In this document: positions 4,180-41,520 of the stretch, piece after piece
Layout: every line of letters starts with the position of its first letter
Position numbering within the stretch: position 1 is the stretch's first letter
Source: an uncultured Algibacter sp.
GTDB lineage: Bacteria > Bacteroidota > Bacteroidia > Flavobacteriales > Flavobacteriaceae
Assembly (NCBI GenBank): GCA_947502405.1
Contig: CANMZT010000008.1
Location: forward strand, 62,001 to 126,000
DNA length: 64,000 nucleotides
Direction of reading: 5' to 3'
Made by a program: the position numbers and the translations under genes
Notes under the pieces: model-generated
What the model saw: only the letters and a program-made list of their open reading frames with translations
What the model was told of the DNA's origin: nothing
The model's database searches: none

Positions 4180-5613
4180 ATGTTATTTAATTCTATAGAG
4201 TTTTTTGTTTTTCTACCAATTGTCTTTATACTTTATTGGTTTGTTACTGCAAAATACTTAAAAGCCCAAAATTTACTAATTGCAATTGCTAGTTATGTGT
4301 TTTATGGATGGTGGGATTGGAGATTCTTATCTCTAATAGCATTCAGTTCAATTATTGATTATACTATAGGGCTTCTATTGAAAAAAACAGAAGTGAAATC
4401 TAAACGAAAGATATTACTATGGATTAGTATATGTGTAAATTTAGGTTTTCTTGGATTCTTTAAATATTATAATTTTTTCATTCAAAGTTTAGTTGATTCC
4501 TTCACGCTTTTAGGACAACCTTTATCTATAAACTCACTAAATATAATACTTCCTGTAGGAATTAGTTTTTATACATTTCAAACATTAAGTTATACAATTG
4601 ATGTTTATAACAAGAAGTTAGAGCCTACTAAAGATTTTATAGCTTTTTCAGCATTTGTTAGCTTCTTCCCTCAACTTGTAGCAGGCCCCATTGAAAGAGC
4701 TACTAATCTTTTACCTCAGTTTTATTCTAAAAGAATATTTAAATATGATTTGGCAATTAACGGTATGCGCCAAGTATTGTGGGGATTATTTAAAAAAGTT
4801 GTAATAGCTGATAATTGCGCCAAATATGCTAATATAATTTTCAATAATTATGAAGATTATTCTGGAAGCACATTAGTTCTAGGAGCATTTTTCTTTGCGT
4901 TTCAAATTTATGGAGATTTTTCAGGTTATTCAGATATAGCTATTGGTGTATCTAGATTATTTGGCTTTGATTTAAAGCGAAATTTTGCGTTTCCTTATTT
5001 CTCGAGAGACATTGCAGAGTTTTGGAGAAGATGGCATATATCCTTATCTACATGGTTTCGTGATTATCTTTATATCCCATTGGGAGGAAGTAGAGGAGGA
5101 ATCAAGATGAAATTAAGAAATACGTTTATTATTTTTATAGTAAGTGGATTTTGGCATGGAGCAAACTGGACATTTATAGTTTGGGGAGCACTTAATGCTA
5201 TTTATTTTTTACCGCTGCTTCTTACAAATAAGAATAGAGTAAATACTAATATTGTAGCTGAAGGTAAATATTTACCTAGTTTTAAAGAAATAAGGCAAAT
5301 GGGAATAACATTTTTTATTACCTTGATTGCTTGGGTGTTTTTTAGAGCAGATTCGATTACCCATGCATTTCTATACTTAAAAGGAATATTTTCTAGTTCT
5401 TTATTCAGCTATTTTGAGATATTCCCAGTCACAATTTTAGTATTGTTACTATTTTTCATAATTATTGAATGGTTGGGTAGAAACTCAGAGTTTGCAATTG
5501 AAAATGTGGATTTCATGAATAAGCCAATAAGATGGGGCTTCTATGTAGGGCTAATAGTACTTATGTTTACTTATACTGGAGAACAACAAGAATTTATTTA
5601 TTTCCAATTTTAG
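4180..5613 (+). CDS. MBOAT-family O-acyltransferase (AlgI/DltB-like)
   Basis: This 477-residue polytopic membrane protein carries the MBOAT signatures: WRRWHISLSTWFRDYLYIPLGG (H286) and the catalytic-histidine motif SGFWHGANW (H326). About ten hydrophobic segments are visible. Members such as AlgI, PatA and DltB move an acyl group across the membrane onto a cell-envelope polymer. The next gene, 3 nt downstream, encodes an SGNH-like partner. Genes further down encode an adenylation enzyme and a carrier protein, so the donor could be an aminoacyl-carrier protein as in the Dlt system rather than acetyl-CoA. MBOAT identity is firm; the acyl donor is inference. Confidence 0.92.
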   Translation: MLFNSIEFFVFLPIVFILYWFVTAKYLKAQNLLIAIASYVFYGWWDWRFLSLIAFSSIIDYTIGLLLKKTEVKSKRKILLWISICVNLGFLGFFKYYNFFIQSLVDSFTLLGQPLSINSLNIILPVGISFYTFQTLSYTIDVYNKKLEPTKDFIAFSAFVSFFPQLVAGPIERATNLLPQFYSKRIFKYDLAINGMRQVLWGLFKKVVIADNCAKYANIIFNNYEDYSGSTLVLGAFFFAFQIYGDFSGYSDIAIGVSRLFGFDLKRNFAFPYFSRDIAEFWRRWHISLSTWFRDYLYIPLGGSRGGIKMKLRNTFIIFIVSGFWHGANWTFIVWGALNAIYFLPLLLTNKNRVNTNIVAEGKYLPSFKEIRQMGITFFITLIAWVFFRADSITHAFLYLKGIFSSSLFSYFEIFPVTILVLLLFFIIIEWLGRNSEFAIENVDFMNKPIRWGFYVGLIVLMFTYTGEQQEFIYFQF

Positions 5614-5616
5614 AAT

Positions 5617-6528
5617 ATGTTTAAGTTTATTAGAAATATAATTTTATTTATAATCGCAGCAATGATTGCAGGTGAAGTTGTTGTTAGAATAACCCACGCC
5701 GTATCTGATGTGCCTCAAAGAATAATTGATAGTGATGGAATTCAGAAGTATTATCCAAACCAAACTGGATATTCATTAAATGGAAAGCATACATGGTTAA
5801 TAAATAAACTTGGTTGGCCAGGGGAATTACCTAATAGCTTTGATAATCTTGTACTCGTTATTGGAGATTCTTTTATAGAAAACTTTATGAATCCGAATGA
5901 TTGTCATCAAGCTCCCTTGTTAAAAGAGAGAATAAACGAACTAAATTTTTTAGAAACAGCTAGATCAGGAGTTTCCTTTATAGAAGCTTTTGAAATTGCT
6001 AAACAAATGGATACGTTAAACCCTGTTAAAAGTTTAATTTATATTAATGATAGTGATTTTTATGAAAGTGTAAAAGAGATAAGTGAAAAGCAAGATATTA
6101 CTCAGTTAGATATATCTGAAGGCAAGGTGATTCATGGTAAAATGAAAGCCCCTGGCTTGAAAAAAGTTTTATACAATTGGAAGCTTATGTATTATTTTTA
6201 TAATAGGTTTCCGCTGAATTTTGAAAACAAAAAACCAACAAAAAAATACACACCAAAAGAGAGAGCGTTAAAACATTCACAGGAAGTAGATGGTTTGTTA
6301 AGTTTTATAAAAACTAAGTATAATATAATTGATAAAATATTAGTTTTTCATCCATATTCAAATAAAAAACTTATTACCAAATGTATAGATGCTGGTTTTG
6401 AAGTTATTTCATTAGATTCGAGTACTGATAGTAACTCTTGGACGTTTGATTTTGATCATCATTGGACTTGTTATGGACATGAACAAGTTGCTAGTCAAGT
6501 AGCAAGAAGTTTAAAAAGTGCAAATTAA
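5617..6528 (+). CDS. membrane-anchored SGNH-hydrolase-like protein (AlgJ/DltD-type partner)
   Basis: This 303-residue protein has an N-terminal hydrophobic anchor (about residues 5-22), an SGNH block I motif VIGDSF with nucleophile S85, and a C-terminal DHHWT motif (D280, H282) followed by G and A at family spacing. The DxHWT pattern is typical of AlgJ/AlgX and DltD-like proteins that complete acyl transfer outside the membrane. It starts 3 nt after the MBOAT gene. A periplasm-facing transferase working with the MBOAT channel is the likely role. Which acyl group it handles is not shown by the sequence. Confidence 0.8.
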   Translation: MFKFIRNIILFIIAAMIAGEVVVRITHAVSDVPQRIIDSDGIQKYYPNQTGYSLNGKHTWLINKLGWPGELPNSFDNLVLVIGDSFIENFMNPNDCHQAPLLKERINELNFLETARSGVSFIEAFEIAKQMDTLNPVKSLIYINDSDFYESVKEISEKQDITQLDISEGKVIHGKMKAPGLKKVLYNWKLMYYFYNRFPLNFENKKPTKKYTPKERALKHSQEVDGLLSFIKTKYNIIDKILVFHPYSNKKLITKCIDAGFEVISLDSSTDSNSWTFDFDHHWTCYGHEQVASQVARSLKSAN

Positions 6529-6599
6529 AATTGTAGTAGTACATAAACAATAATACTTTTTGATAAATACCCCCTTAATCATCTTCTTATAAAACCTAA

Positions 6600-7697
6600 A
6601 TGAACAACTTAGAAGTCATTACTTTAACAAAGCATAAATTGGAAGATGCAATTCTAAATAATACATTTTGGAATGGTAAGATAGATGCCCCTTTTTCAAA
6701 GAATAAAGCAAAATGGATGCTTAAAAATGACCGTGCTAATCCTGATGACACATTGGCTGTATTTGCTTATGATGACAAAAAAATTATTGCACTAGTTTAT
6801 CTAGTTCCTGATTTTATAACAACAAATAACAACCAAACAAAAAAAGTCTTTTGGAGTCAAAGATGGTGGGTAGCTGACAAATATAAAGACACTGTGCTTT
6901 CTACTTACATAAAACAATTATCCCTCAATGCTTGTAAAAATAATGTATTAGTAAAATTTTTAGGTGATAACACTAAGGCATATTACAAAAAACAACCTTT
7001 TACAGAATTTTCAAAACGAAAAAGGTATATTATTATTTTTAGTTTAGATTACGAGCTTTTAATATATAAAAAAGAGAGCTTAAAAAAAGCAGCATCGTTA
7101 ATAAAATTAGCTGATAGGTTTTCTAGAAAAATTATTGCAACACTTAATAGGAGTAAAGCAAAAATAAATAGCAATTCAATACATTATAAGAGTGTTTCAT
7201 CTATAAATGATGAATTATGGCTTTTTTTAAATAAACACTGTGCTAAAGATATTATACCAAAAAGTGAAGCATACATAAATTGGCAAATAGATAATAATCA
7301 ATATCATGTTATAAATGATAAATATGATAAGCCTGATTATAAATGTTTATTAGGCTCTATTTCTGATAAAATGTATAACTCTAATTTTATAATTAAAAAC
7401 AACGACGAAATAGTCGGTTTTATTTCTGGTTTTGTATCTAATAATAGATTTATAATACGCTATTTTATTACAGACAAAAACTTCTATAATGAATGTGTAA
7501 AGGTTTTAATAGAGGCTTTAATCGATGCTGAATGCACAATACTACAAACTGAAAACAGTGTATTAGGAGACTATGTTATGAGCAATTTTTATAAAGTTTA
7601 TGCTGACGTTAAACCACTGGTATCACTGATTCATAATGATATTGATGCAGATATGAATAACGTAATGGTAACAGACCAAGACGGTAACTTTTTCTAA
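6600..7697 (+). CDS. GNAT-like acyltransferase in the aminoacyl cassette
   Basis: The 365-residue protein has no signal peptide. Its overall pattern (an N-terminal region with VFWSQRWWV, and a C-terminal section with NNDEIVGFISGF and a final loop with QTENSVLGDYVMSNFYK) fits two weak GNAT-type acyl-CoA acyltransferase domains. Similar proteins occur in polysaccharide loci beside AMP-ligases. It lies 71 nt after the SGNH gene and 7 nt before the adenylation enzyme. A role transferring an activated acyl or aminoacyl group onto an aminosugar is plausible. The family assignment is moderate because motifs are diffuse. Confidence 0.55.
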   Translation: MNNLEVITLTKHKLEDAILNNTFWNGKIDAPFSKNKAKWMLKNDRANPDDTLAVFAYDDKKIIALVYLVPDFITTNNNQTKKVFWSQRWWVADKYKDTVLSTYIKQLSLNACKNNVLVKFLGDNTKAYYKKQPFTEFSKRKRYIIIFSLDYELLIYKKESLKKAASLIKLADRFSRKIIATLNRSKAKINSNSIHYKSVSSINDELWLFLNKHCAKDIIPKSEAYINWQIDNNQYHVINDKYDKPDYKCLLGSISDKMYNSNFIIKNNDEIVGFISGFVSNNRFIIRYFITDKNFYNECVKVLIEALIDAECTILQTENSVLGDYVMSNFYKVYADVKPLVSLIHNDIDADMNNVMVTDQDGNFF

Positions 7698-7704
7698 ATT
7701 AATA

Positions 7705-9204
7705 ATGAATTTAATTTATAGCCTACATAAATCTTTTGAGCTGAATGCAAAAAGAAATGCTTTTTGTATTGCTGATAAATTTTACTCGTATCAGGATTTA
7801 TTAGATTCTGTTATTAAAGTACGCAAAATTATTACCAACAATATAGATGTTATTGAAAACAACATAGGATTGGTTATAAATGACGATTTAGAAACTTACG
7901 CTACTATTTTCGGATTGTGGATGGAAGGTAAAGCCTATGTTCCTGTTAACCCAATTGCTCCAAAAGCAAGGAATCTAGAAATTTTAAATGCCATTAACAT
8001 AAAGCATATTTTTGATTCATCAAGTAAAGTTGAATATTCGGATTTTCAAATACATAATGTAAGTAAAGCAAATATCAATAATAGCAAATTTGAATCAATT
8101 AAATTTAATGAGTCAAATTTAGCTTATGTATTATTTACAAGTGGGAGTACAGGAGCTCCCAAGGGTATCCCTATTAGCTTTAAAAATTTAAATGCATTGG
8201 CTACTGCACTTGATAGAGATGAAGAGTATAAATTAAAAGCATCAGACAGATGTTTACAAATGTACGACTTAACATTTGATGCTTCGCTTACGGCCCTGCT
8301 ACCAGCACTATTAGTTGGGGCTTGTGTATACACGGTGCCTTCAAACGTTATAAAATATTTTCATGTTTATAAACTTTTAGAAAAATATAAGCTAACTGTT
8401 TTAAAGATGGTGCCTTCAATAATTTATTACCTCAGGCCATATTTCTCAGAAATTAACGCTCCATCTGTTCGTTATTCAATTTTTGGAGGTGAAAAGCTAT
8501 ATGAGGATATCGTTAATGATTGGATTAAATGCGTACCTAACAGTAAAGTATTAAATCATTATGGCCCAACAGAATTTACAGTTTGTAGCAATTATTATAA
8601 ATACAAATCAAATAAAAAAAATAAATCTTATAACGGTGTTCTTTCTATCGGAAAGCCTTTTAAAGGCGTTGATTGTTTAATTTTAAATGAAGATGAAGTT
8701 ATAGCTTCTAATAACCAGGTAGGAGAGTTATGTTTGTCTGGAAATCAATTAACAAGCGGGTATTACAAAAATGAATCGTTGAACCTCACTTCTTTTTTTA
8801 CACATAAAGCAGCCAACGGAATACCTAAAAGGTTTTACAAAACTGGCGATTTATGTTTTATGGATGATGATGGTGATTATATGTATGTTGGTAGAAAAGA
8901 TTTTCAAGTAAAGATAGGCGGTTATAGAGTTGAGTTAGGAGAAATTGAGTATCATGTTAGAAATCACGAATCCACGAAATCAAAAAATATTTTAGTGATT
9001 GATGTTAAAAATGTTAGTAATAATAATGAACTCGTAATCGTTATAGAAAGTCTTAAATTTGATACTGAAGAATTATTAGATTATTTGAGTACTAAACTTG
9101 TAAACTATATGGTTCCTAAAAAAGTATTTTTTATTGATAATTTTCCTCACAATAAAAATGGGAAGATTGATAGAAAAGTGCTAAGAGATATTATAAATAA
9201 TTAA
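7705..9204 (+). CDS. amino-acid adenylation enzyme (DltA/NRPS A-domain-like)
   Basis: The 499-residue protein has all core adenylation motifs: FTSGSTGAPKG (residues 144-154), GPTE, YKTGD (D382), GRKDFQVKIGGYRVELGEIE, and the C-terminal catalytic lysine K487 in NGKIDRK. It activates a carboxylate as an acyl-AMP and loads it onto a carrier protein. The A4 segment reads TFDASL, with D192 at the position that binds the alpha-amino group in amino-acid-activating domains, so an amino acid is the likely substrate. It has no condensation or thiolation domain, like DltA. The stop is 3 nt before a free-standing carrier protein gene. Activation of an amino acid is a strong inference; which one is unknown. 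Confidence 0.88.
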   Translation: MNLIYSLHKSFELNAKRNAFCIADKFYSYQDLLDSVIKVRKIITNNIDVIENNIGLVINDDLETYATIFGLWMEGKAYVPVNPIAPKARNLEILNAINIKHIFDSSSKVEYSDFQIHNVSKANINNSKFESIKFNESNLAYVLFTSGSTGAPKGIPISFKNLNALATALDRDEEYKLKASDRCLQMYDLTFDASLTALLPALLVGACVYTVPSNVIKYFHVYKLLEKYKLTVLKMVPSIIYYLRPYFSEINAPSVRYSIFGGEKLYEDIVNDWIKCVPNSKVLNHYGPTEFTVCSNYYKYKSNKKNKSYNGVLSIGKPFKGVDCLILNEDEVIASNNQVGELCLSGNQLTSGYYKNESLNLTSFFTHKAANGIPKRFYKTGDLCFMDDDGDYMYVGRKDFQVKIGGYRVELGEIEYHVRNHESTKSKNILVIDVKNVSNNNELVIVIESLKFDTEELLDYLSTKLVNYMVPKKVFFIDNFPHNKNGKIDRKVLRDIINN

Positions 9205-9207
9205 GAA

Positions 9208-9453
9208 ATGAATTCAGAAGAAATTATTATTGTTATAAAAAAATCGTTCGTTAAAATTTTAGAGCACGATAATTTTGAGTTAAACGAATCTACTACAGCT
9301 AAAGATGTTGATGGATGGGAGTCTATAACTCATTTATTAATAATGAACGATATTGAAAAATCGTTTGATATTAAATTTAAATTAATGGATTTAATGTCTA
9401 TGGAAAATATCGGAGATTTAATTAAAACAATTAAAAAAGAAATTGAGACCTAA
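9208..9453 (+). CDS. acyl/aminoacyl carrier protein
   Basis: This 81-residue acidic four-helix protein has the phosphopantetheine site DGWES with S39 as the modified serine. The tryptophan after the glycine and the preceding V-D are common in DltC-like and EPS-locus carrier proteins. It begins 3 nt after the adenylation gene, so the two are almost certainly translationally coupled partners. It ends the plus-strand cassette, facing the minus-strand formyltransferase gene at 9505. The 51-bp gap has only a very short possible hairpin. Confidence 0.88.
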   Translation: MNSEEIIIVIKKSFVKILEHDNFELNESTTAKDVDGWESITHLLIMNDIEKSFDIKFKLMDLMSMENIGDLIKTIKKEIET

Positions 9454-9504: not shown

Positions 9505-10287
9505 CTACTTTATGCCCTTAAACCATCTATTATATAAATAAAACCACAGCGTAGGGTGGTAGTAAAGTGTATTGTTAATTTCTTCCTTTGTATTGGGTTT
9601 AGAAACTAATCTATCAGATTGTAACTCCTTTAATGACTTTTGTAGTAGAGGTAAAGCCTTAGCTAATTGCAAATAAGTATAAGTCATAAAATTATCCTTA
9701 GGTGTAATTATATCAGTTATAAGATCTTGATAAAGAATATTACCCGTATCAATGCCTTCATCAACTAAATGTACTGTAACACCACAATTTTCTTTATCCT
9801 TATTTATTAAAGACCAATATGCACCATGTAAACCTCTATATTTTGGTGTAATTCCAGAATGAATATTAATGAATTTTGCGTTTACAGATTGTAAAGTCTT
9901 TTTTGATAAAATTCTGGTTGTAACAATTACTACTATATCTGGGTTTAAACTTTTAAGTAACTTTTTGCCCTCTTCAGAATTAATAGAGCTTACTCGAGTA
10001 GTTTTGTGTGATTCATAATTAGATTGTTTGATATTATTTGCATTCAAAATATTTTTAAACCGTTTTTTTGAAGTTGCGTTTATGTAAGACACAACAAAAA
10101 CCCTAAATAACAACTGGCCAATTACATGAAGCAAACCTAGTCTCTTAATTCTACGCTTTAAGAGTTTAGATATGCTCTCGCCATTATCAAGAATAATATG
10201 CGCAATATTAAAATCAGTCTTTAAACTTTGGTATACCATTTTCGGATAATACCAATCACCAACTACCATTATAATTTTTTTATCCAT
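9505..10287 (-). CDS. formyltransferase-family protein
   Basis: The 260-residue protein has the folate-dependent formyltransferase catalytic triad: N141 and H143 in FINIHSGITPKYRG, and D180 in DEGIDTGNI. Relatives include Met-tRNA formyltransferase and sugar N-formyltransferases (such as those acting on dTDP- or UDP-4-amino sugars). It lacks the C-terminal tRNA-binding domain of Fmt. The most likely role is N-formylation of an amino-sugar or amino-acid substituent with 10-formyl-THF as donor. It is the last gene of the long minus-strand block, 8 nt after the FemAB-like gene. Confidence 0.85.
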   Translation of the reverse strand: MDKKIIMVVGDWYYPKMVYQSLKTDFNIAHIILDNGESISKLLKRRIKRLGLLHVIGQLLFRVFVVSYINATSKKRFKNILNANNIKQSNYESHKTTRVSSINSEEGKKLLKSLNPDIVVIVTTRILSKKTLQSVNAKFINIHSGITPKYRGLHGAYWSLINKDKENCGVTVHLVDEGIDTGNILYQDLITDIITPKDNFMTYTYLQLAKALPLLQKSLKELQSDRLVSKPNTKEEINNTLYYHPTLWFYLYNRWFKGIK

Positions 10288-10295
10288 CTAACGTA

Positions 10296-11540
10296 TTAAT
10301 TATCTAAAATTTTTATCTGATGATTTAGCTTACCATTGGATAAAATATAAACATTCTTTTCATTTTTAATCTTGTATGACTTTATATTAGCATAAGGTTC
10401 AACTACAAGATAGAGAAAGTCATAAACATGTTTTTTTAAGAAAGAATAATCTTCATTAACAAGAATGTTTATTTCTGTTAGATTATCAAAAACAGGTAAC
10501 TTCTCTAGTTTGGTAATTATTATTTTATTTTCAGGTTTTGACTGTTTTATATTCTTTATTCTATAAGTGAATTTATGAAATTTAATATCAATTTTTTTGT
10601 GACGTAAATAAGCTTTCAATTTAAAAAAGTTGTGAAACCCATAAGCTTTTAATTTTGAAAATATTGATTTTTTATCATATAAGATGTGGTACTCAAAATC
10701 ATATTGTAAGGAGGACATTCTTTTCTTATAGTCGAAATATCCTTTAGAAAAATCTAGAGTATTTATGCCATTATCATAGCACCAATTTAAAAGTTTCAAA
10801 TTATTGACATAACCAATATTGAATTTTGAATAATCAATATCAAAAACTGTAATTGCATCAATTACAGAACTCTCAGTGTGGTAATTATAAGTTATAGCAA
10901 TTGGTGTCTGATCATTATAAACCACAAATAAAGAGGCTTTTTTTTCTTCAATCAGGGGAAGAGCAACTTCCTTGTAAAAACTCCACTCATCTGGTTGCAT
11001 ATTATTATAGGATATTTGCTTTTCTGAATATCGCTTTTGCAATAAAGTCATGAAATAACCAAACACTTTATTATACTCCTCTTTGTCAATTTTACCGTAG
11101 AGCATTTTGACGGATATGTTAAAACATTTATCAAGGCGCTTAGTAAATTTGCGCATTTTCATTCTAGTGTTTTTACTGAATGTGTTTAACAAATAGTCAT
11201 CAATAGTATTATATTGTTTTAAATCAATTAAAAAACCAGGGTATTGAGTAGATTTTAATATGCCTAAATCTTTAGGAAAATCATTTGTTTGTGTGTTTAA
11301 ATGCGGAAGAACATCATAAATCATAAAAACTTTATTTTTATAATCTTCAAAGTTCTTTAGTACATAACTATTTCCTTTGGTTAAATTTCTACCTACATTA
11401 AAAAAAACAGAGTATCTTCCTTTGTAAAAATTCAATCCTTCTAAAAACTTAAAGCTTTCAATTTTTTTGTTTTGTATAAAATGGCTTTTCCATACTTTTT
11501 GAAAAGTATTTGTAGAGAATGGTGTGCTTTTAGTTTCCAT
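10296..11540 (-). CDS. FemAB/BioF2-like acyltransferase (Acetyltransf_6 type)
   Basis: The 414-residue protein resembles the GNAT-fold family that includes CelD and FemAB relatives: a central section with NYHTESSVIDAITVFD and the C-terminal signature NTLDFSKGYFDYKKR. Members add aminoacyl or acyl groups to cell-wall or EPS precursors. No signal peptide or membrane span is present, so it is cytoplasmic. It lies 22 nt downstream of the methyltransferase gene and 8 nt upstream of the formyltransferase gene, within the amino-acid-type modification block. The exact acyl donor is unknown. Confidence 0.65.
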   Translation of the reverse strand: METKSTPFSTNTFQKVWKSHFIQNKKIESFKFLEGLNFYKGRYSVFFNVGRNLTKGNSYVLKNFEDYKNKVFMIYDVLPHLNTQTNDFPKDLGILKSTQYPGFLIDLKQYNTIDDYLLNTFSKNTRMKMRKFTKRLDKCFNISVKMLYGKIDKEEYNKVFGYFMTLLQKRYSEKQISYNNMQPDEWSFYKEVALPLIEEKKASLFVVYNDQTPIAITYNYHTESSVIDAITVFDIDYSKFNIGYVNNLKLLNWCYDNGINTLDFSKGYFDYKKRMSSLQYDFEYHILYDKKSIFSKLKAYGFHNFFKLKAYLRHKKIDIKFHKFTYRIKNIKQSKPENKIIITKLEKLPVFDNLTEINILVNEDYSFLKKHVYDFLYLVVEPYANIKSYKIKNEKNVYILSNGKLNHQIKILDN

Positions 11541-11562
11541 TAAATTCTTAAATATAGATAAC

Positions 11563-12288
11563 TTATCTTTTTTTACATGCTACATGTATATGACCAACTT
11601 TATCTGAATCTTTCATTTTACTTTTAATTTCAATAAGTGAAAAATTATTTTTTTCTAGAAGGTCTTTAACATGCTTTTCTTTAAACCATGAATTTTGAGG
11701 TTGATTTTTATTTAAAAATTTTCTATTGAATTTACCATCAATATTTAACCATGGTAATTTGTATTTATTGGTTTTTTCTTTTCTAAACATCCTAAAAAGA
11801 TTTACGAGGATACTTAGAAAAGGATTATAGGTTTTAGAATTCCAGTTTAAAAAAGAAAAAATGTAAATACTATTCTCTTTTCCAATTCTATGAGCTTCTT
11901 TAAATGCTTTTGGTAGATCTTCTTTTTCTATGAAACATAGAACTTGTTGTAGATAAATTAAATAATCAAAATCTAAACTTTTGTAATGTGATAAATCTTT
12001 TACCTCAGCTACTTTAAAATTTACTTTAGATTTTAGTTGCTTTTTTTTTGATTCACAGAAGCTAATCATATTATTTACATAATCAAAAGCATCTAATTGT
12101 TTAAATCCTAATTTTTCAATTTCAAAAATTAATCTACCACCACCAGTACCAGCTTCAATAACTTTTCCATTTTTATCCAAGAGATATTTTTTAAAAAAAT
12201 ATTCTTCTAATGGTAATAAATTATCCTTACCAACCCAAACTTTAAACAGTTTGTCTGAATAAAGTTCTTTATTTAAATTCTCATGCAT
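11563..12288 (-). CDS. class I SAM-dependent methyltransferase
   Basis: The 241-residue protein has the SAM-binding motif I VIEAGTGGGRL followed by an acidic residue after the second strand (DAFDYVNNM), and YLIYLQQVLCF resembles motif IV. It could methylate a sugar hydroxyl, an amino group or a carboxyl group of the polymer precursor. It has FemAB-like genes on both sides in the same orientation, suggesting that it acts on the same substituent. The substrate is not evident. Confidence 0.82.
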   Translation of the reverse strand: MHENLNKELYSDKLFKVWVGKDNLLPLEEYFFKKYLLDKNGKVIEAGTGGGRLIFEIEKLGFKQLDAFDYVNNMISFCESKKKQLKSKVNFKVAEVKDLSHYKSLDFDYLIYLQQVLCFIEKEDLPKAFKEAHRIGKENSIYIFSFLNWNSKTYNPFLSILVNLFRMFRKEKTNKYKLPWLNIDGKFNRKFLNKNQPQNSWFKEKHVKDLLEKNNFSLIEIKSKMKDSDKVGHIHVACKKR

Positions 12289-12332
12289 AGGTTAAAGTTT
12301 AATTAGTTTTGGGGTTATTTTAAGAGCAAACT

Positions 12333-13361
12333 TTAATATTCTTTGAGTCTATATAGAGGGAAGTAACTAGAATTTTGGTTTTTAATTTGCATTATATCGC
12401 ACATGTTATCATAAGCATTTTGGTCTACAATTAATTTCCAAAGATAGAAAGAATGAAAATCTTTAGAAAAAGAGGACTTAAACCAAAAGAGCGAATCATC
12501 ATCACTAGCACCTAGGCCACCACCAAGGTTTAAAAATTTGTAGCCAGCATCAGTAGATCTAATCCTCATTTCATCAATAAGAAGCTTTGTAGGCATAAGA
12601 TTTAAAAATTCATTTTTAGTTCCAGATAAATGATATTGTACTATATTATTCACTTTAAAAAACATAGCGCCAGCAATAATACTTTCAGATTCGTTGTCCT
12701 GTGCGAATAGTATATCTGTTTCAAAATCTTTACTATTATAAAGATTTATAAAATAATCTTCTTCAAAATAATAAGATTCATGGGCATTTACCCGAGTCAT
12801 GTTTTCTTTATAAATTTTTATAAAGTTGTTTATATCATTTGTGTTTCTTGCTTCTGAAATATTACAGTTTCTTCTGGATTTATTAACATGATTCTTTAGG
12901 CGTCTTTGATAATTTTGTCGTTGTTTTGTTTTATCCAATGTTAAGTCGATATTAACTACTTGTCCCAACATAGATAAAGAACCTAGATTATCTAAAACCT
13001 TTTTTTGATTCGATATATAAGGATTTAATCTAGAAAAAACAGATATTATGTTATTGTCGTTAAAATAATTTAGAAGTTCCTTTACAAAATTTTTATTATC
13101 AAAATTTTTGCTTATACCTTTCGAAAGTGGGCCACCATACCCATAAACAGACGTGGCATCTTTATAAATAGTATTATTAATTTCTCTTATTATGAGTGGT
13201 AACCCAATGGTTATATCGCCCTCTGTATATTTTATAAATATAATAGAGTCTTCTTCTTGTTTTGCTATTTTATGATAATCAAAGGTGTGGTAAGTATCAT
13301 ATTCGTCAAAATCCAATAGAAAAGAGTCCCAATCATCTTTTTTTGATATTACTTGAATCAT
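12333..13361 (-). CDS. FemAB-like peptidyl/aminoacyl transferase
   Basis: The 342-residue protein matches the GNAT-fold FemAB-like group: an N-terminal DDWDSF region with the DTYHTFDYHKI segment, a charged SRRNCNISEAR region, then IAGAMFFKVNN and the C-terminal NLGGGLGASDDDSLFWFKSS motif. These proteins transfer an amino acid or acyl group onto an amine, as in peptidoglycan bridge formation, but many in EPS loci act on aminosugars. It lies between the ATP-grasp gene and the methyltransferase in the same operon. Confidence 0.75.
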   Translation of the reverse strand: MIQVISKKDDWDSFLLDFDEYDTYHTFDYHKIAKQEEDSIIFIKYTEGDITIGLPLIIREINNTIYKDATSVYGYGGPLSKGISKNFDNKNFVKELLNYFNDNNIISVFSRLNPYISNQKKVLDNLGSLSMLGQVVNIDLTLDKTKQRQNYQRRLKNHVNKSRRNCNISEARNTNDINNFIKIYKENMTRVNAHESYYFEEDYFINLYNSKDFETDILFAQDNESESIIAGAMFFKVNNIVQYHLSGTKNEFLNLMPTKLLIDEMRIRSTDAGYKFLNLGGGLGASDDDSLFWFKSSFSKDFHSFYLWKLIVDQNAYDNMCDIMQIKNQNSSYFPLYRLKEY

Positions 13362-13424
13362 TTAAAATGGACATTAAATCAATTCTATTTTTGCTATTAA
13401 TTAGAATTATTGATTTATTAATAT

Positions 13425-14444
13425 TTAGTTGTTTATTTTTATTAGTCTATCGCATTTAGAAAAGGTAATGTTTTCTTTATAATTATTAAAATGTTTTAAA
13501 TCTTTATTTTTTTTGCCTTTTAACCATTCAATATAAATGGCAGCTAAATTTATTCCAGCTTCATGAGAAAAAGGGTATCCGCCACCAAATCTTGGGTTAA
13601 TTTCTAATAGATAAAGTTTGTCTCCTACTATAAATACGTCACTATCTGCATTTCCAATATGTTTGAGGCCTTGACTAATTTTTTTGCCTAATACTTCAAA
13701 CCTTTCGTCAATAATGGATTTAGCTTTATCAGTTTCTCCAGAACGCATCCCAAGTTTTTCTTTAGCGAAAACACCGAAAAAATTACCCTCAAAATCATTA
13801 ACAATATCCATTCCATACTCTTTACCGTTAAGTTTTTCTTGAATTAAAATATTGCAATCTTGATCTTCTTGACTTATTTTATTTAAAATAGTTTTCTTTA
13901 GTTTTATTTTTTGAAGTTTGTATGAAAGCTTTAATTCTTCGATAGATTCGGGAAAATCTATTCCAATGGAACCGCTTCCCCAACGAGGTTTTAAAACAAG
14001 AGGGAATTTTAAGGAGCCATTTTCTATAGCTGTTATGGCTTCATTTAGCTTTATAAAAGTATTTGGGGTATTTAACCCTAAATCTTTTATGAAATTATAT
14101 GTTTTCCATTTATCAAAACCTATCGAAATAACCTCATCGTTAGAAACAATTACTTTTGCACCAGTATTCTCAATTAAATACTTGTTTTTTGATAAAATGG
14201 GTAATTCTAAATCATTTAAGGAAATAATTGCCTTTACAGAATAGTTTCTTACAACTTCAATTATTTCATCAATATAATTTTCTGCATAAATACTTGGTAA
14301 TTTTATGGCAATATCTGCATCAACCATTGCTGGTGCAAGCATTTGCTCATCTGCAGCTAAAACTTTACCTTCATTATTTAACGCTTCTTTAAAGTAGTTG
14401 ATAAGATAATTTCGTCTACCTGCACATGTAAATAGAATATTCAT
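13425..14444 (-). CDS. ATP-grasp ligase
   Basis: The 339-residue protein begins with ILFTCAGRRNYL, the pre-ATP-grasp motif shared with carbamoyl-phosphate-synthetase-like ligases. It continues with the ATP-binding PLVLKPRWGSGSIGI and the Mg-binding LEINPRFGGGYP. Such enzymes form amide or thioester bonds through an acyl phosphate. It is 9 nt from the PLP decarboxylase gene. The pairing of an ATP-grasp ligase and a fold-III decarboxylase with a nearby free carrier protein recalls BtrJ/BtrK/BtrI of butirosin biosynthesis, where an amino acid is loaded on a carrier and decarboxylated; this parallel is inference. Confidence 0.85.
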   Translation of the reverse strand: MNILFTCAGRRNYLINYFKEALNNEGKVLAADEQMLAPAMVDADIAIKLPSIYAENYIDEIIEVVRNYSVKAIISLNDLELPILSKNKYLIENTGAKVIVSNDEVISIGFDKWKTYNFIKDLGLNTPNTFIKLNEAITAIENGSLKFPLVLKPRWGSGSIGIDFPESIEELKLSYKLQKIKLKKTILNKISQEDQDCNILIQEKLNGKEYGMDIVNDFEGNFFGVFAKEKLGMRSGETDKAKSIIDERFEVLGKKISQGLKHIGNADSDVFIVGDKLYLLEINPRFGGGYPFSHEAGINLAAIYIEWLKGKKNKDLKHFNNYKENITFSKCDRLIKINN

Positions 14445-14453
14445 AGTAGTAGT

Positions 14454-15725
14454 TTATGCGTTTAAGTTATATTGTTGTAAAACGTTTGATAAGTTTTGTT
14501 TATATCGAACAATACTTATTTCATTATTCTCAATTGATACTATAGCAGGGATATAATTAATGAATTCTGGAGTTTTTACAATAGTGTAAGCTCCAACATT
14601 TTCTATAGAAATATAATCAGAAACACCTATTCCAGAAATTTCAACTTCAGAAAGTACAACATCTTTTTCCATGCATGTAGATCCAACTACGTCAAATTTA
14701 AGTGATGCATTATTAATACTTTTTGAAAACACTTTAAAAGGTAAGTTTAATCGATGCATGGTGGGTTTTACATTATAAATACCACCTTCTATTAGTAAAA
14801 AGTTTTTTGATCTTATTTTTTTGATATCCATAACTTTTGCAAAGTAGGAGAGCGCATTAGAAACAACTGAAACACCTGGTTCTAATATAATATATGGCTT
14901 GTTTTTTGCAAACCAATCATCATCATTGAAAACAGAAAAAATTATGTCTGCATATTCTTCGAAAGCAGGTGTTTTTCTATTTAAAAGACCTTTAGGCATA
15001 GGCCCAAAAAATCCTCCTCCAACATTAAAGTATGCAATGTCATTTAATTCATATTTATTTCTTACCCTACACAAAGTTTTTGCTATGGACGCGAAATTCT
15101 TTAAACTTCTGTCTGAAGATGATGTATGACCATGTAAAGCATTAATAGTAACACCTAGACCTCTTATAATTTCTATGGCTTTTCCTAAATTCTCATCAGA
15201 ATCTTCAAATCCAAATCTTCCATATTTTAAACCTTCTTGAATTGTTGAGTTGCCATTTTCATCAATTAAAGACATATTTATTCTTAACCCGACACTAATT
15301 TTAGCTTCAGGATTTCTGGATACAATTTTTTTAAGTAAATTAACTTCATGAAAAGAGTCAGTATTAACTATTCCATTACCCAACAAAACCTTTTCTAAAT
15401 CTTTTTCTTTTTTTAGCGGCCCGTTAAAGATGATTTTTTCAGGTTCATAGCCAAGTTTAAAAGCCAGATCTAACTCCATGTCAGATACTACTTCTGCGTA
15501 TACGCCATTTTCTTTAGCTAACTTGCATAACTTAGGAATATAATTAGTTTTATATGAGTAACCTATTATTATTTTATCGTGAAATTTTAAGAAAGCATTT
15601 TTCAAATCGGTAATATTCTTCAAATAATTACTTTCATTTATAACATAAAAAGAGTTTCCAACTTCTTCTGATATTTTATCTAATAACTTATAATCTATCA
15701 TTTGTTTATTTTTTTCTAATTTCAT
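14454..15725 (-). CDS. fold-III PLP-dependent decarboxylase (LysA/BtrK-like)
   Basis: The 423-residue protein has the PLP lysine K59 in GYSYKTN, the glycine-rich phosphate-binding loop NVGGGF, a C-terminal EPG motif (ILEPGVSV), and GSTCMEKD, which matches the Cys-x3-Asp of diaminopimelate and ornithine decarboxylases. Known substrates of this group include meso-DAP, ornithine, carboxynorspermidine and carrier-bound glutamate. Its place in the EPS locus argues against a housekeeping LysA. The start used overlaps the sugar transferase gene by 20 nt; a second ATG at codon 9 (start 15701) would leave a 4-nt gap and is a good alternative. Confidence 0.83.
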   Translation of the reverse strand: MKLEKNKQMIDYKLLDKISEEVGNSFYVINESNYLKNITDLKNAFLKFHDKIIIGYSYKTNYIPKLCKLAKENGVYAEVVSDMELDLAFKLGYEPEKIIFNGPLKKEKDLEKVLLGNGIVNTDSFHEVNLLKKIVSRNPEAKISVGLRINMSLIDENGNSTIQEGLKYGRFGFEDSDENLGKAIEIIRGLGVTINALHGHTSSSDRSLKNFASIAKTLCRVRNKYELNDIAYFNVGGGFFGPMPKGLLNRKTPAFEEYADIIFSVFNDDDWFAKNKPYIILEPGVSVVSNALSYFAKVMDIKKIRSKNFLLIEGGIYNVKPTMHRLNLPFKVFSKSINNASLKFDVVGSTCMEKDVVLSEVEISGIGVSDYISIENVGAYTIVKTPEFINYIPAIVSIENNEISIVRYKQNLSNVLQQYNLNA

Positions 15726-38427: not shown

Positions 38428-39558
38428 ATGTTGACTAAAACAAAAATATATTTATCATCTCCTCACATGGGAGGTTCAGAGCAAAAATTTGTTAATGAAG
38501 CCTTTTCTACAAATTGGATTGCTCCATTAGGACCAAACGTTGATGGTTTTGAAAATGACATACAAAGTTATTTGGGTGGAAATAAGTATGTAGCAGCACT
38601 TAGTTCTGGTACAGCAGCTATTCATTTAGCTCTTAAAATTTTAGGGGTTACTAAAGGAGACGAGGTTTTGTGTCAAAGTTTTACTTTTTCAGCCTCAGCA
38701 AATCCTATATTGTATTTAGGAGCTACACCTGTTTTTATAGATAGTGAAAAAGACACATGGAATATTTCTCCAGAGTTACTTGAAATTGCCATAAAAGATC
38801 GTATAGAAAAATATAAAAAGCCTAAAGCCATAATCGCAGTTCACCTTTATGGTATGCCATACAAGGTTGATGAAATTAATGCATTGGGGAAAAAGTATGA
38901 TATCCCAGTAGTAGAAGATAGTGCTGAAGCTTTAGGAAGTAAATATTTTAACCAAAAATGTGGAGCTCTTTCTGACGCCGGAATATTATCATTTAATGGA
39001 AATAAAATAATTACTACATCTGGCGGTGGAGCTCTAATTGTTAATTCTGAAGAACTTAAGAATAAAGCTGTTTTCTTATCCACTCAAGCTCGAGACAATG
39101 CACCACATTACGAACATTCAACTATCGGGTATAATTATAGAATGAGTAATGTTTTAGCAGGCATTGGAAGAGGGCAGATGGAAGTTATAGATGATAGAGT
39201 AAGTGCTCGAAGAAAGAATTTTGATTTTTATAAAACGCATTTGTCAAAATTTAAGGATATCACATTTTTAGAAGAAAAGAACGGTTTCTTTTCTAACAGA
39301 TGGATTACTTGTATTGAAACCAAATCATATGAGCTTAGAGAAAAAATAAGATTAGAATTATTAAAAGACGATATAGAATCAAGACCACTATGGAAGCCCA
39401 TGCACATGCAACCTGTATTTGAAGACTATTTGCATTTTACAAATGGGTTTTCTGAAAATTTATTCGAAAAAGGACTTTGTTTGCCTAGTGGTTCCAATTT
39501 AAGTCAAGAAGACTTGAATAGAATTGTAAATAATATTAAGAACACCCTCAAATTTTAA
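38428..39558 (+). CDS. DegT/DnrJ/EryC1/StrS-family aminotransferase (PglE-like)
   Basis: The 376-residue fold-I PLP enzyme has the SSGTAAIHLALKILG phosphate-binding region, the VVEDSAEALGS aspartate motif and the PLP lysine K193 in FNGNKIITTSGGG. Relatives aminate a 4-keto sugar nucleotide. The next gene (3 nt downstream) encodes a WbpM/PglF-like 4,6-dehydratase, which makes exactly such a keto substrate from UDP-GlcNAc. The product is probably UDP-4-amino-4,6-dideoxy-GlcNAc or an isomer, a suitable target for the N-acyl/formyl transferases of this locus. Confidence 0.9.
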   Translation: MLTKTKIYLSSPHMGGSEQKFVNEAFSTNWIAPLGPNVDGFENDIQSYLGGNKYVAALSSGTAAIHLALKILGVTKGDEVLCQSFTFSASANPILYLGATPVFIDSEKDTWNISPELLEIAIKDRIEKYKKPKAIIAVHLYGMPYKVDEINALGKKYDIPVVEDSAEALGSKYFNQKCGALSDAGILSFNGNKIITTSGGGALIVNSEELKNKAVFLSTQARDNAPHYEHSTIGYNYRMSNVLAGIGRGQMEVIDDRVSARRKNFDFYKTHLSKFKDITFLEEKNGFFSNRWITCIETKSYELREKIRLELLKDDIESRPLWKPMHMQPVFEDYLHFTNGFSENLFEKGLCLPSGSNLSQEDLNRIVNNIKNTLKF

Positions 39559-39561
39559 ATT

Positions 39562-41520
39562 ATGATACATAACTACTTTAGCTATTTTTCACAAAAGTAT
39601 GCCTCTAAATGGCTAGTTTTTAGCATAGATTTAGTTTTAATACTTGCTACATTTTTCTTAGCTTATTTTATAAGGTTTAATTTTACACTTGATTTCGATT
39701 TGAATCAATTTGTATTAGAATTGCCGTTCGTTTTAGTCGTTTCAGCAGTTAGTTTTTTAATCGTTGGCTCATTTAAAAGTGTGATTAGGCATACTGGTTT
39801 TACTGATGTTGTAAATGTTTTTAAATCCATACTATTAATGTCTGCAATATCAATTGTTTTAGTATTGTTAAATAGAGCAACTGATTTAGTTTCTGGTTTT
39901 ACAATACCAAAATCAATAATTGTAATACATGCTTTGTTGAGTTTTGTTGTACTAAGTGCAAGTAGATTACTTTTTAAAATGACTTACAAGTATTTAAAAT
40001 GCAAATTGCTTTTAACAAAAAGAGTTTTAATTTATGGTACTGGTGATTCAGCAATTGTAACTTACAATGCATTACTAAACAATGCAAGCTCTAGCTTTAA
40101 TGTCATTGCTTTTGTAGACGACAACATAAAAAAGAAAGGAAAGGTTATTAATGGAGTACCTATTTTATCTCACAAATTCTTAGATGAGAATTATGTGACT
40201 TCTAATGATATTGATGAAGTTATAGTTGCTCAGCAAAATACTAATACAAATAAGCTAATGAAGCTTATTGATAGTTTATCTGATTCTGACGTAAAAGTTA
40301 CTAAAGTACCTCCTATTGAACAGTGGATTAATGGAGAGTTAAGTGCTAAACAAATAAAACAAGTTCAAATTGAAGATTTATTAGGTCGTCCTCCAATAGA
40401 AATTGATAACCCTAACCTCCTAAATGAGTTTAAAGGAGAAACCGTTCTCGTTACTGGAGCAGCTGGCTCTATTGGTAGTGAACTTGTGAAACAACTATCT
40501 AATTTTAATGTTAAGCATTTAATTTTAGTTGATCAAGCTGAATCGGCGTTGTACGATGTTCAACAAGATTTAAAGAGAGATGGTAAACACAATTATACAG
40601 CAATAGTAGCTGATATTAGAGATGGATTAAGAATAGATACTATTTTCCAAAACCACAAGCCAACAATGGTGTTTCATGCAGCTGCCTATAAGCATGTACC
40701 CCTAATGGAAAAATCACCTTATGAAGCTATAAAAATAAATGTGAACGGTACAAAACTGCTTGCAGACACAGCCTCTAGATATAATGTAAAGAAATTTGTA
40801 TTTGTATCTACAGATAAAGCTGTAAACCCAACAAGTGTAATGGGAGCAACTAAGAGAATGGCAGAAATGTATATAAGTTGCCTTCAAAAAGAAAGTAAAA
40901 CTAAGTTCATTACTACTCGTTTTGGGAATGTTTTAGGATCCAACGGTTCTGTTATTCCATTATTTAAAAAGCAGATAGAAAATGGTTCTTCACTTACTCT
41001 GACACATAAAGATATTACAAGGTATTTTATGACTATACCTGAAGCATCTCAACTTGTACTTGAAGCAGGTACAATGGGTAAAGGTGGAGAGATTTTTATA
41101 TTTGACATGGGAGAATCGGTAAAAATTTACGACCTTGCCAAAAATATGATTAAGTTATCAGGGTTAAGATATCCTGAAGATATTGATATTAAAATAACAG
41201 GGTTGAGACCTGGTGAGAAATTATATGAAGAGTTATTAGCTAATGGTGAAAACACTTTGTCAACTTATCACAAAAAAATATTAATTAGTAAAACTAGAGA
41301 ATTAGATTACGTTAAAGTTAAAGCAGAAATAGAAGAACTTTGTATAACCAATCGTTTTCAAAGTAACAATATCGTAATGAAAATGAAGAGTCTAATTCCT
41401 GAATATAAATCAAATAACTCTGAATATGAAAAGTTTGATACTAGAGTTAAGATTTATAAAAAAGCTAAAGGTATTATTAATAGTAATTCTACAAAAAGTG
41501 TAGAATACAAATCAATCTAA
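39562..41520 (+). CDS. membrane-bound UDP-GlcNAc 4,6-dehydratase (WbpM/PglF-like)
   Basis: The 652-residue protein has four N-terminal membrane segments (about residues 15-130), a CoA-binding-like Rossmann domain (LIYGTGDSAIV), and a C-terminal SDR domain with VTGAAGSIGSELVKQ, HAAAYKHVPLMEKSP and the catalytic region NPTSVMGATKRMAE. It removes water from UDP-GlcNAc to give a 4-keto-6-deoxy sugar. It is directly downstream of the aminotransferase gene that would use its product. It ends 66 nt before the Wza gene. Confidence 0.92.
   Translation: MIHNYFSYFSQKYASKWLVFSIDLVLILATFFLAYFIRFNFTLDFDLNQFVLELPFVLVVSAVSFLIVGSFKSVIRHTGFTDVVNVFKSILLMSAISIVLVLLNRATDLVSGFTIPKSIIVIHALLSFVVLSASRLLFKMTYKYLKCKLLLTKRVLIYGTGDSAIVTYNALLNNASSSFNVIAFVDDNIKKKGKVINGVPILSHKFLDENYVTSNDIDEVIVAQQNTNTNKLMKLIDSLSDSDVKVTKVPPIEQWINGELSAKQIKQVQIEDLLGRPPIEIDNPNLLNEFKGETVLVTGAAGSIGSELVKQLSNFNVKHLILVDQAESALYDVQQDLKRDGKHNYTAIVADIRDGLRIDTIFQNHKPTMVFHAAAYKHVPLMEKSPYEAIKINVNGTKLLADTASRYNVKKFVFVSTDKAVNPTSVMGATKRMAEMYISCLQKESKTKFITTRFGNVLGSNGSVIPLFKKQIENGSSLTLTHKDITRYFMTIPEASQLVLEAGTMGKGGEIFIFDMGESVKIYDLAKNMIKLSGLRYPEDIDIKITGLRPGEKLYEELLANGENTLSTYHKKILISKTRELDYVKVKAEIEELCITNRFQSNNIVMKMKSLIPEYKSNNSEYEKFDTRVKIYKKAKGIINSNSTKSVEYKSI

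Follow-up and report, generated by a model that had tools for sequence, protein, structure and literature searches.

We analysed a 64,000-nucleotide stretch of DNA from an uncultured Algibacter sp. (contig CANMZT010000008.1, positions 62,001 to 126,000; hereafter, the window), and focus here on five collinear genes on its plus strand. These genes probably constitute two independent modules that lie side by side: a pair that O-acylates a polymer and a carrier-based module that attaches aspartate to the amino group of an amino sugar. The modules would exchange no acyl groups with each other. The source genome, which belongs to the Flavobacteriaceae, comprises 3.79 Mb in 81 contigs. A previous, sequence-only reading had joined all five genes into one pathway resembling the Dlt system of Firmicutes, with a GNAT protein as an extra transferase. 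Its account of the genes was accurate. All five open reading frames (ORFs) are open, the residues that it named (H286, H326, S85, DxHWT, which is DHHWT at 280, and S39) are present where it placed them, and the polysaccharide locus of this Gram-negative organism indeed contains an amino-acid-activating enzyme and a carrier, which adjoin a GNAT gene and an MBOAT-SGNH pair. The joint pathway, however, does not agree with the comparative data described below. The features are as follows.

4180-5613, plus strand: gene 1 (module 1), MBOAT O-acyltransferase, 477 amino acids, His286 and His326 (Pfam MBOAT)
5593-5610, plus strand: C-terminal acyl-shuttle motif FIYFQF (FXYXXF) of gene 1, with Tyr474 (sequence; PMC12148441)
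5617-6528, plus strand: gene 2 (module 1), membrane-anchored SGNH/AlgJ-like protein, 303 amino acids, Ser85, DHHWT at 280 (motifs, structure model, Foldseek)
6529-6599, no strand: 71-bp gap between the two gene blocks (coordinates)
6600-7697, plus strand: gene 3 (module 2), tandem-GNAT N-acyltransferase, 365 amino acids (structure model, conserved neighbourhood)
7705-9204, plus strand: gene 4 (module 2), stand-alone amino-acid adenylation enzyme, 499 amino acids, code DATKIGHVCK (AMP-binding, pocket code)
9208-9453, plus strand: gene 5 (module 2), aminoacyl carrier protein, 81 amino acids, phosphopantetheine site Ser39 (PP-binding, solved relative)

The five genes lie at the edge of a polysaccharide locus, behind an Lrp/AsnC regulator and a gene labelled by eye as an M14 peptidase. 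Because genes 2 and 3 are separated by 71 bp, versus 3 bp between genes 1 and 2, 7 bp between genes 3 and 4 and 3 bp between genes 4 and 5, we distinguish two gene blocks, 1-2 and 3-5. The corresponding gap is 70 bp in the sister locus L026, which comes from another uncultured Algibacter, the nearest named relative, and whose gene 3 is 88% identical. A promoter between genes 2 and 3 was considered and rejected, given that the gap contains just one-mismatch matches to the -7 element.

Conservation of the two modules

An alignment of gene 3 was used to scan 84,980 species, each represented by one genome. The scan yielded 73 loci, nearly all of which are named as Flavobacteriaceae genera, and no gene 3 was found on plasmid records. 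Two loci (L028 and L087) stop at a contig end just after gene 3, which leaves 71 untruncated loci. All 71 have the GNAT, adenylation enzyme and carrier genes in this order (hereafter, the triad); 70 were recognized by an automatic rule and one, L048, by inspection, its adenylation ORF having been called from an early start. The supposedly extra transferase always accompanies the adenylation enzyme and carrier in these loci.

The MBOAT is not part of this constancy. Only four of the 73 loci (L026, L027, L032 and L068, all untruncated) have an MBOAT gene on the same strand no more than 1.3 kb upstream, and the four MBOATs represent three types from three parts of the MBOAT tree. The MBOATs of L027 and L032 belong to a type that usually occupies the locus's far edge; their SGNH partner is encoded on the opposite strand, at a distance of 4 to 8 kb. 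In L068, the MBOAT is of a third type and has an SGNH partner of its own. The sequence-only reading had suggested a search for the five-gene order, which is preserved in L026 and recurs in L068. No MBOAT is present anywhere in 17 of the 73 stretches, some of which are short. In Algibacter luteus (L015, which covers the region of L030), the triad occupies the equivalent position behind an Lrp gene, the stretch examined contains no MBOAT, and the genome (G163) has no match to gene 2 at E <= 1e-6.

The MBOAT-SGNH pair is likewise conserved without the triad. Among 199 genomes of the family, the window MBOAT is matched in 100 (E <= 1e-120) and the window adenylation enzyme in 11 (E <= 1e-60); of these 11 matches, the one in G162 lies within a 5240-residue open frame and the one in G119 lacks a triad. 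We read 30 MBOAT loci, namely those of the window, its sister and the 28 nearest others. None of the 28 has an adenylation, carrier or FkbH gene within flanks of roughly 1.5 kb, and 25 of their genomes are outside the set of 11 with an adenylation match (G006, G072 and G162 are inside it). Relatives of gene 2 with at least 39% identity occur in 7 of the 199 genomes, including the window and its sister. Each of the five others adjoins an MBOAT gene, two of these MBOATs being of the far-edge type, and the five genomes have no match to the adenylation enzyme.

Some arrangements related to these genes were also seen. In Hyunsoonleella pacifica (L095), a close relative of gene 2 and its MBOAT lie at the distal end of the stretch, in opposite orientation to a triad with a different code. 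Five loci (L033, L038, L040, L059 and L065) have, upstream of the triad, six successive ORFs resembling the GNAT_6-type protein of the window, perhaps for serial aminoacyl additions. In other families of the class (L160, L167, L168 and L170), an adenylation enzyme, a GNAT-like ORF of 216-224 residues (judged by eye) and a carrier occur together. The adenylation pocket codes of these four loci are DltA-like in having Cys at position 301. Another carrier-to-GNAT arrangement is found at L175:847-3836, where genes for an FkbH protein and a carrier are followed by a GNAT-like ORF of 305 residues (judged by eye).

The MBOAT and SGNH proteins

Gene 1 matches Pfam MBOAT (E 8e-30), and the most closely related protein of solved structure is a DltB (E 5e-25). 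Histidines are present at 286 and 326, and His326, within GFWHG, aligns with DltB. Nonetheless, the protein does not reach the cut-off of the DltB equivalog model (144 versus 375 bits). Its C terminus is FIYFQF, a fused FXYXXF shuttle with Tyr474. We noted no separate DltX, the motif being fused to the MBOAT instead, and ORFs of fewer than 50 amino acids were not searched for one.

Gene 2 has no match to a Pfam family at E 0.1. The motifs GDSF (83-86, including S85) and DHHWT (at 280) occur in the sister protein of L026 and in the window protein aligned with it. The structure model of gene 2 is of middling quality (predicted local distance difference test, pLDDT, 79.5), and Foldseek returned just two PDB matches at E 0.001, both of them weak and both GDSL/SGNH enzymes.

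In the mechanism described in PMC12148441, an acyl-tyrosine is formed on the fused motif and the acyl group then moves to the SGNH serine. The same paper links fused shuttles to coenzyme A (CoA) donors without a carrier, and assigns the fused motif to PatA and a separate DltX to Dlt. The window pair, which is of the PatA/AlgI type, fits this mechanism. The MBOAT of module 1 would load its own Tyr474 with an acyl group (acetyl, taken from acetyl-CoA, being most likely), and the anchored SGNH protein would pass it to a hydroxyl group of an exported polymer.

The GNAT, adenylation enzyme and carrier

The protein encoded by gene 3 is below the Pfam GNAT threshold (15.4 versus 20.7 bits). However, its structure model is confident (pLDDT 92.8) and has two GNAT domains that together occupy the whole chain. 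The PDB matches listed are N-myristoyltransferases, Eis-like proteins and glucosamine N-acetyltransferases (E 1e-11, 8-12% identity, TM-scores near 0.5). The canonical [QR]xxGx[GA] motif for the CoA pyrophosphate is missing from the window protein and from 71 of the 73 homologues, which is compatible with a carrier-borne donor but does not prove one.

Gene 4 encodes an AMP-binding protein (E 2e-53) whose D192 and K487 are equivalent to Asp235 and Lys517. Its best solved relatives are domains of nonribosomal peptide synthetases (NRPSs), and it does not reach the cut-off of the DltA equivalog model (240 versus 560 bits). Gene 5 scores just below the PP-binding cut-off (20.1 versus 20.8 bits) and has a solved carrier protein as a relative (E 1e-10). 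All 70 carriers picked by the automatic rule have a W-[DEG]-S site.

To read the substrate pocket, ten residues were placed by motif on the alignment, with the GrsA motifs as reference and position numbers from PMC12283262. The resulting code of gene 4 is DATKIGHVCK, with Gly at position 301. In a non-repeated set of 73 rows, made up of the window and the scan loci, the codes are DATKIGHVCK (9), DATKVGHVCK (3), DFVTSGYVYK (49), DFVSSGYIYK (5) and others (7). DFVTSGYVYK, the commonest code of other triads, matches any code compared with it in at most five of ten residues. DltA has Cys at 301.

The gene 4 code is identical in eight of ten residues to the closest Asp code, and equally to the closest Asn code. 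In the literature, DLTKIGHV is called Asp, with the Asp module of surfactin synthetase as its best match (PMC3207962), DLTKVGHVGK is given as hydroxy-Asp and DATKIGEVGK as Asn/Asp (PMC10391617), and DLTKVGHVGK is described as common to Asp and Asn domains, the majority favouring Asp (PMC12283262). Our best guess from the pocket is that gene 4 activates Asp, or else Asn, and we prefer Asp because of the His at 322. D-Ala was rejected as a substrate, the code being of the Asp/Asn type.

Based on these properties, we propose that module 2 works in the cytoplasm. The adenylation enzyme would activate aspartate (or asparagine) and load it onto the phosphopantetheine of the carrier. From there, the tandem GNAT would transfer the aminoacyl residue to an amine; the most likely acceptor is an amino sugar of the repeat unit that is bound to a nucleotide or a lipid.

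In a tree of adenylation enzymes (54 rows, 50 of them different), 35 of the 36 triad rows form one clade (support 100/99). The sole triad row outside the clade is L205, whose code resembles the Dlt-like group. One region (L042:10001-15000, which equals L209:7170-12669) contains a GNAT-adenylation pair with the code DATKIGHVCK, then a GNAT-adenylation pair with the code DFVTSGYVYK, and a single carrier.

Carrier-linked MBOAT operons in the same family

Operons that do resemble Dlt exist in the Flavobacteriaceae, although the window locus is not one of them. In this respect, the likeness to Dlt proposed by the sequence-only reading holds for the family but not for the locus. The second adenylation enzyme of two genomes served as the lead, followed by a wider search and a reading of the stretches; at E <= 1e-150, the wider search matched 15 of 397 family genomes, triad enzymes counted in. 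In seven operons, little or nothing separates the carrier gene from the MBOAT gene, and no GNAT lies between them. An eighth gene row has an FkbH-type protein in place of the adenylation enzyme.

L024:8796-12923: adenylation-carrier-MBOAT-SGNH operon
L025:6242-10376: adenylation-carrier-MBOAT-SGNH operon
L200:6059-10166: adenylation-carrier-MBOAT-SGNH operon
L201:4321-8441: adenylation-carrier-MBOAT-SGNH operon
L202:5301-9435: adenylation-carrier-MBOAT-SGNH operon
L204:4576-8715: adenylation-carrier-MBOAT-SGNH operon
L207:3884-8741: adenylation-carrier-MBOAT-SGNH operon with one gene interposed
L024:13110-17443: FkbH-type protein, carrier, MBOAT and SGNH genes in a row

The adenylation enzymes of four of the seven operons have the code DLVLLCVIYK, and DLMLLCVIFK, DMFSVAAIVK and DVQAITFIYK occur once each. 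The FkbH domain of L024 scores 294 bits (cut-off 147), and both SGNH proteins of this stretch have GDS and D-x-x-H motifs. In keeping with FkbH biology, the FkbH operon perhaps transfers a glyceryl-type acyl group from carrier to MBOAT. FkbH genes above the cut-off occur in 4 of the 199 family genomes, one of them seen in an MBOAT operon. In four genomes (G070, G019, G531 and G681), a single contig carries both a carrier-MBOAT operon and a triad enzyme, at a distance of 20 to 33 kb. Related adenylation enzymes occur at 14 further loci in the class, where no MBOAT was seen within flanks of roughly 1.5 kb.

To place the window MBOAT, we used a tree of 64 rows (62 of them different) that were picked for an F-x-Y-x-x-F end. 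The end is FIYFQF in 63 rows and FIYVQF in one, and because all rows carry such an end, FIYFQF does not separate carrier-linked from stand-alone MBOATs. The MBOATs of the seven adenylation-carrier operons and of the FkbH operon form a single clade (support 100/98), whereas the window MBOAT belongs to a different clade of 34 rows (100/100). After removal of two rows on account of their very long branches, the approximately unbiased (AU) test rejected a clade of the carrier-linked MBOATs with those of the window and L026 (p 0.024). Given that its rows were either selected for resemblance to the window sequence or supplied by the adenylation search, the tree is not a census. In addition, MBOAT-SGNH was a default label for 52 rows and was not assigned one at a time; these rows include L068_7435, which adjoins a triad.

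The sister operons, of greater interest than the window set, join a carrier supply of the Dlt type to a fused shuttle of the Pat type. The L024-type operons merit attention of their own because they do not fit the mechanism of PMC12148441.

Acceptor, neighbouring genes and alternative explanations

A small initiating sugar transferase is encoded within 800 bp of the triad and on the same strand in 58 of the 71 loci, and somewhere in the stretch in 69. This association, together with the variation of the triad pocket codes among strains, as expected for a variable surface glycan, argues against the alternative that fares best, namely that the triad is a miniature NRPS acting on a lipid, a peptide or a small secreted metabolite, and lies in a polysaccharide locus by chance. 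We regard this explanation as unlikely, even though protein N-myristoyltransferases are among the best structural matches of the GNAT, NRPS domains are the nearest solved relatives of the adenylation enzyme, and FemAB-like genes, whose products could build peptides, are present in 67 of the 71 triad stretches.

Two groups of genes elsewhere in the window may be relevant to the fate of the aspartyl group.

38428-41520, plus strand: DegT-type sugar aminotransferase (Pfam DegT_DnrJ_EryC1, E 2e-92) and PglF-like dehydratase (Polysacc_synt_2, E 1e-118)
9505-15725, minus strand: formyltransferase, GNAT_6-type, methyltransferase, FemAB-like, ATP-grasp and decarboxylase-fold genes beside the triad (family matches)

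The first group could make a 4-amino sugar and is a possible source of the acceptor; this amino sugar would be acylated by the gene 3 GNAT. The minus-strand genes 3′ of the triad also include a small initiating sugar transferase, after the decarboxylase-fold gene. Given that the second group adjoins the triad on the other strand, aspartate might be a precursor that is altered by the formyltransferase, methyltransferase, decarboxylase-fold, ATP-grasp and FemAB-like proteins, such that the final substituent is a modified aspartate. Several loci that share the window's pocket code also contain formyltransferase, GNAT_6-type, methyltransferase and FemAB genes. However, these neighbours are not generally tied to the triad, as formyltransferase homologues occur in 20 of the 71 triad loci, ATP-grasp in 11 and the decarboxylase in 2, and we consider a modified aspartate somewhat less likely still than a miniature NRPS.

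The least likely explanation, and in our view an improbable one, is the single Dlt-like pathway, in which the carrier would feed the MBOAT and the acyl group would move via Tyr474 and the SGNH protein to form a polymer ester, the GNAT being extra: its best point is the collinear gene order that is kept in L026 and recurs in L068, and the seven family operons do join an adenylation enzyme and carrier to fused-shuttle MBOATs, but those true operons differ in gene order and have no GNAT between, and a five-gene Dlt cassette is rejected by the conservation of each module without the other, by the diverse origins of the MBOATs upstream of triads, by the position of the window MBOAT, with its own shuttle, outside the carrier-linked clade, by the AU test and by a pocket that is aspartate-like and not D-Ala-like.

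Several observations weigh against two independent modules with the functions that we propose. The five-gene order in L068 involves an unrelated MBOAT, and could hint at a functional tie between the modules; L027 and L032 also have the order MBOAT, GNAT, adenylation enzyme, carrier. The SGNH partner of some of the nearest MBOATs was not recognized by the search, and the AU p-value is not extreme. In 13 of the 71 loci, one of them the sister L026, no sugar transferase adjoins the triad, and the amino-sugar acceptor is something that we infer. Finally, the choice between Asp and Asn is based on short codes, and the closest Asn code fits equally well (8/10).

Significance

If the two modules function as proposed, marine Bacteroidota have a route that adds amino acids to glycans via a carrier protein and a GNAT, and the added amino acid would be predictable from sequence by the pocket code. 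We found no description of a carrier-GNAT module for glycan aminoacylation or of a carrier-fed MBOAT in open-licence PubMed Central. More tentatively, it is quite possible that Flavobacteriaceae use swappable adenylation-GNAT pairs, each with its own code, around one carrier to write amino acids on surface glycans, and that some of their genomes also run hybrid Dlt/Pat operons in which fused-shuttle MBOATs are fed by an adenylation-loaded or FkbH-loaded carrier. The occurrence of carrier-linked and stand-alone fused-shuttle MBOATs in one family is a natural test of the choice between carrier and CoA donors.

Comparison with known systems

In the Dlt system of Firmicutes (DltA, B, C, D and X), too, a single gene row encodes four such proteins (adenylation enzyme, carrier, MBOAT and SGNH protein), and DltB is the best solved relative of the window MBOAT. 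Unlike Dlt, the window has the fused FIYFQF tail in place of a separate DltX, misses the DltA and DltB equivalog cut-offs, has an Asp/Asn-type pocket and a constant GNAT partner, and its MBOAT is not conserved with the carrier.

O-acetyltransferases of the PatAB/AlgIJ type share with the window pair a fused FXYXXF motif, conserved histidines and an anchored SGNH partner. Like the window pair, they occur without carrier genes, and this kinship suggests an acyl-CoA donor for the window pair. The window pair differs in that gene 2 has no Pfam match at E 0.1.

Adenylation enzymes of the NRPS type with a stand-alone carrier resemble genes 4 and 5 in the equivalents of Asp235 and Lys517, the Asp/Asn code and the carrier serine. 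By contrast, the window row contains no condensation domain, and the partner is a tandem GNAT. The tandem-GNAT N-acyltransferases (N-myristoyltransferase, Eis and glucosamine N-acetyltransferase) have the two-GNAT architecture of gene 3, which is nevertheless set apart by its low identity to the matches listed, its missing CoA motif and its genetic link to a carrier.

The Flavobacteriaceae adenylation-carrier-MBOAT-SGNH operons have four protein kinds and a fused shuttle in common with the window. However, they have no GNAT, their codes are mostly DLVLLCVIYK, and their MBOATs belong to another clade.

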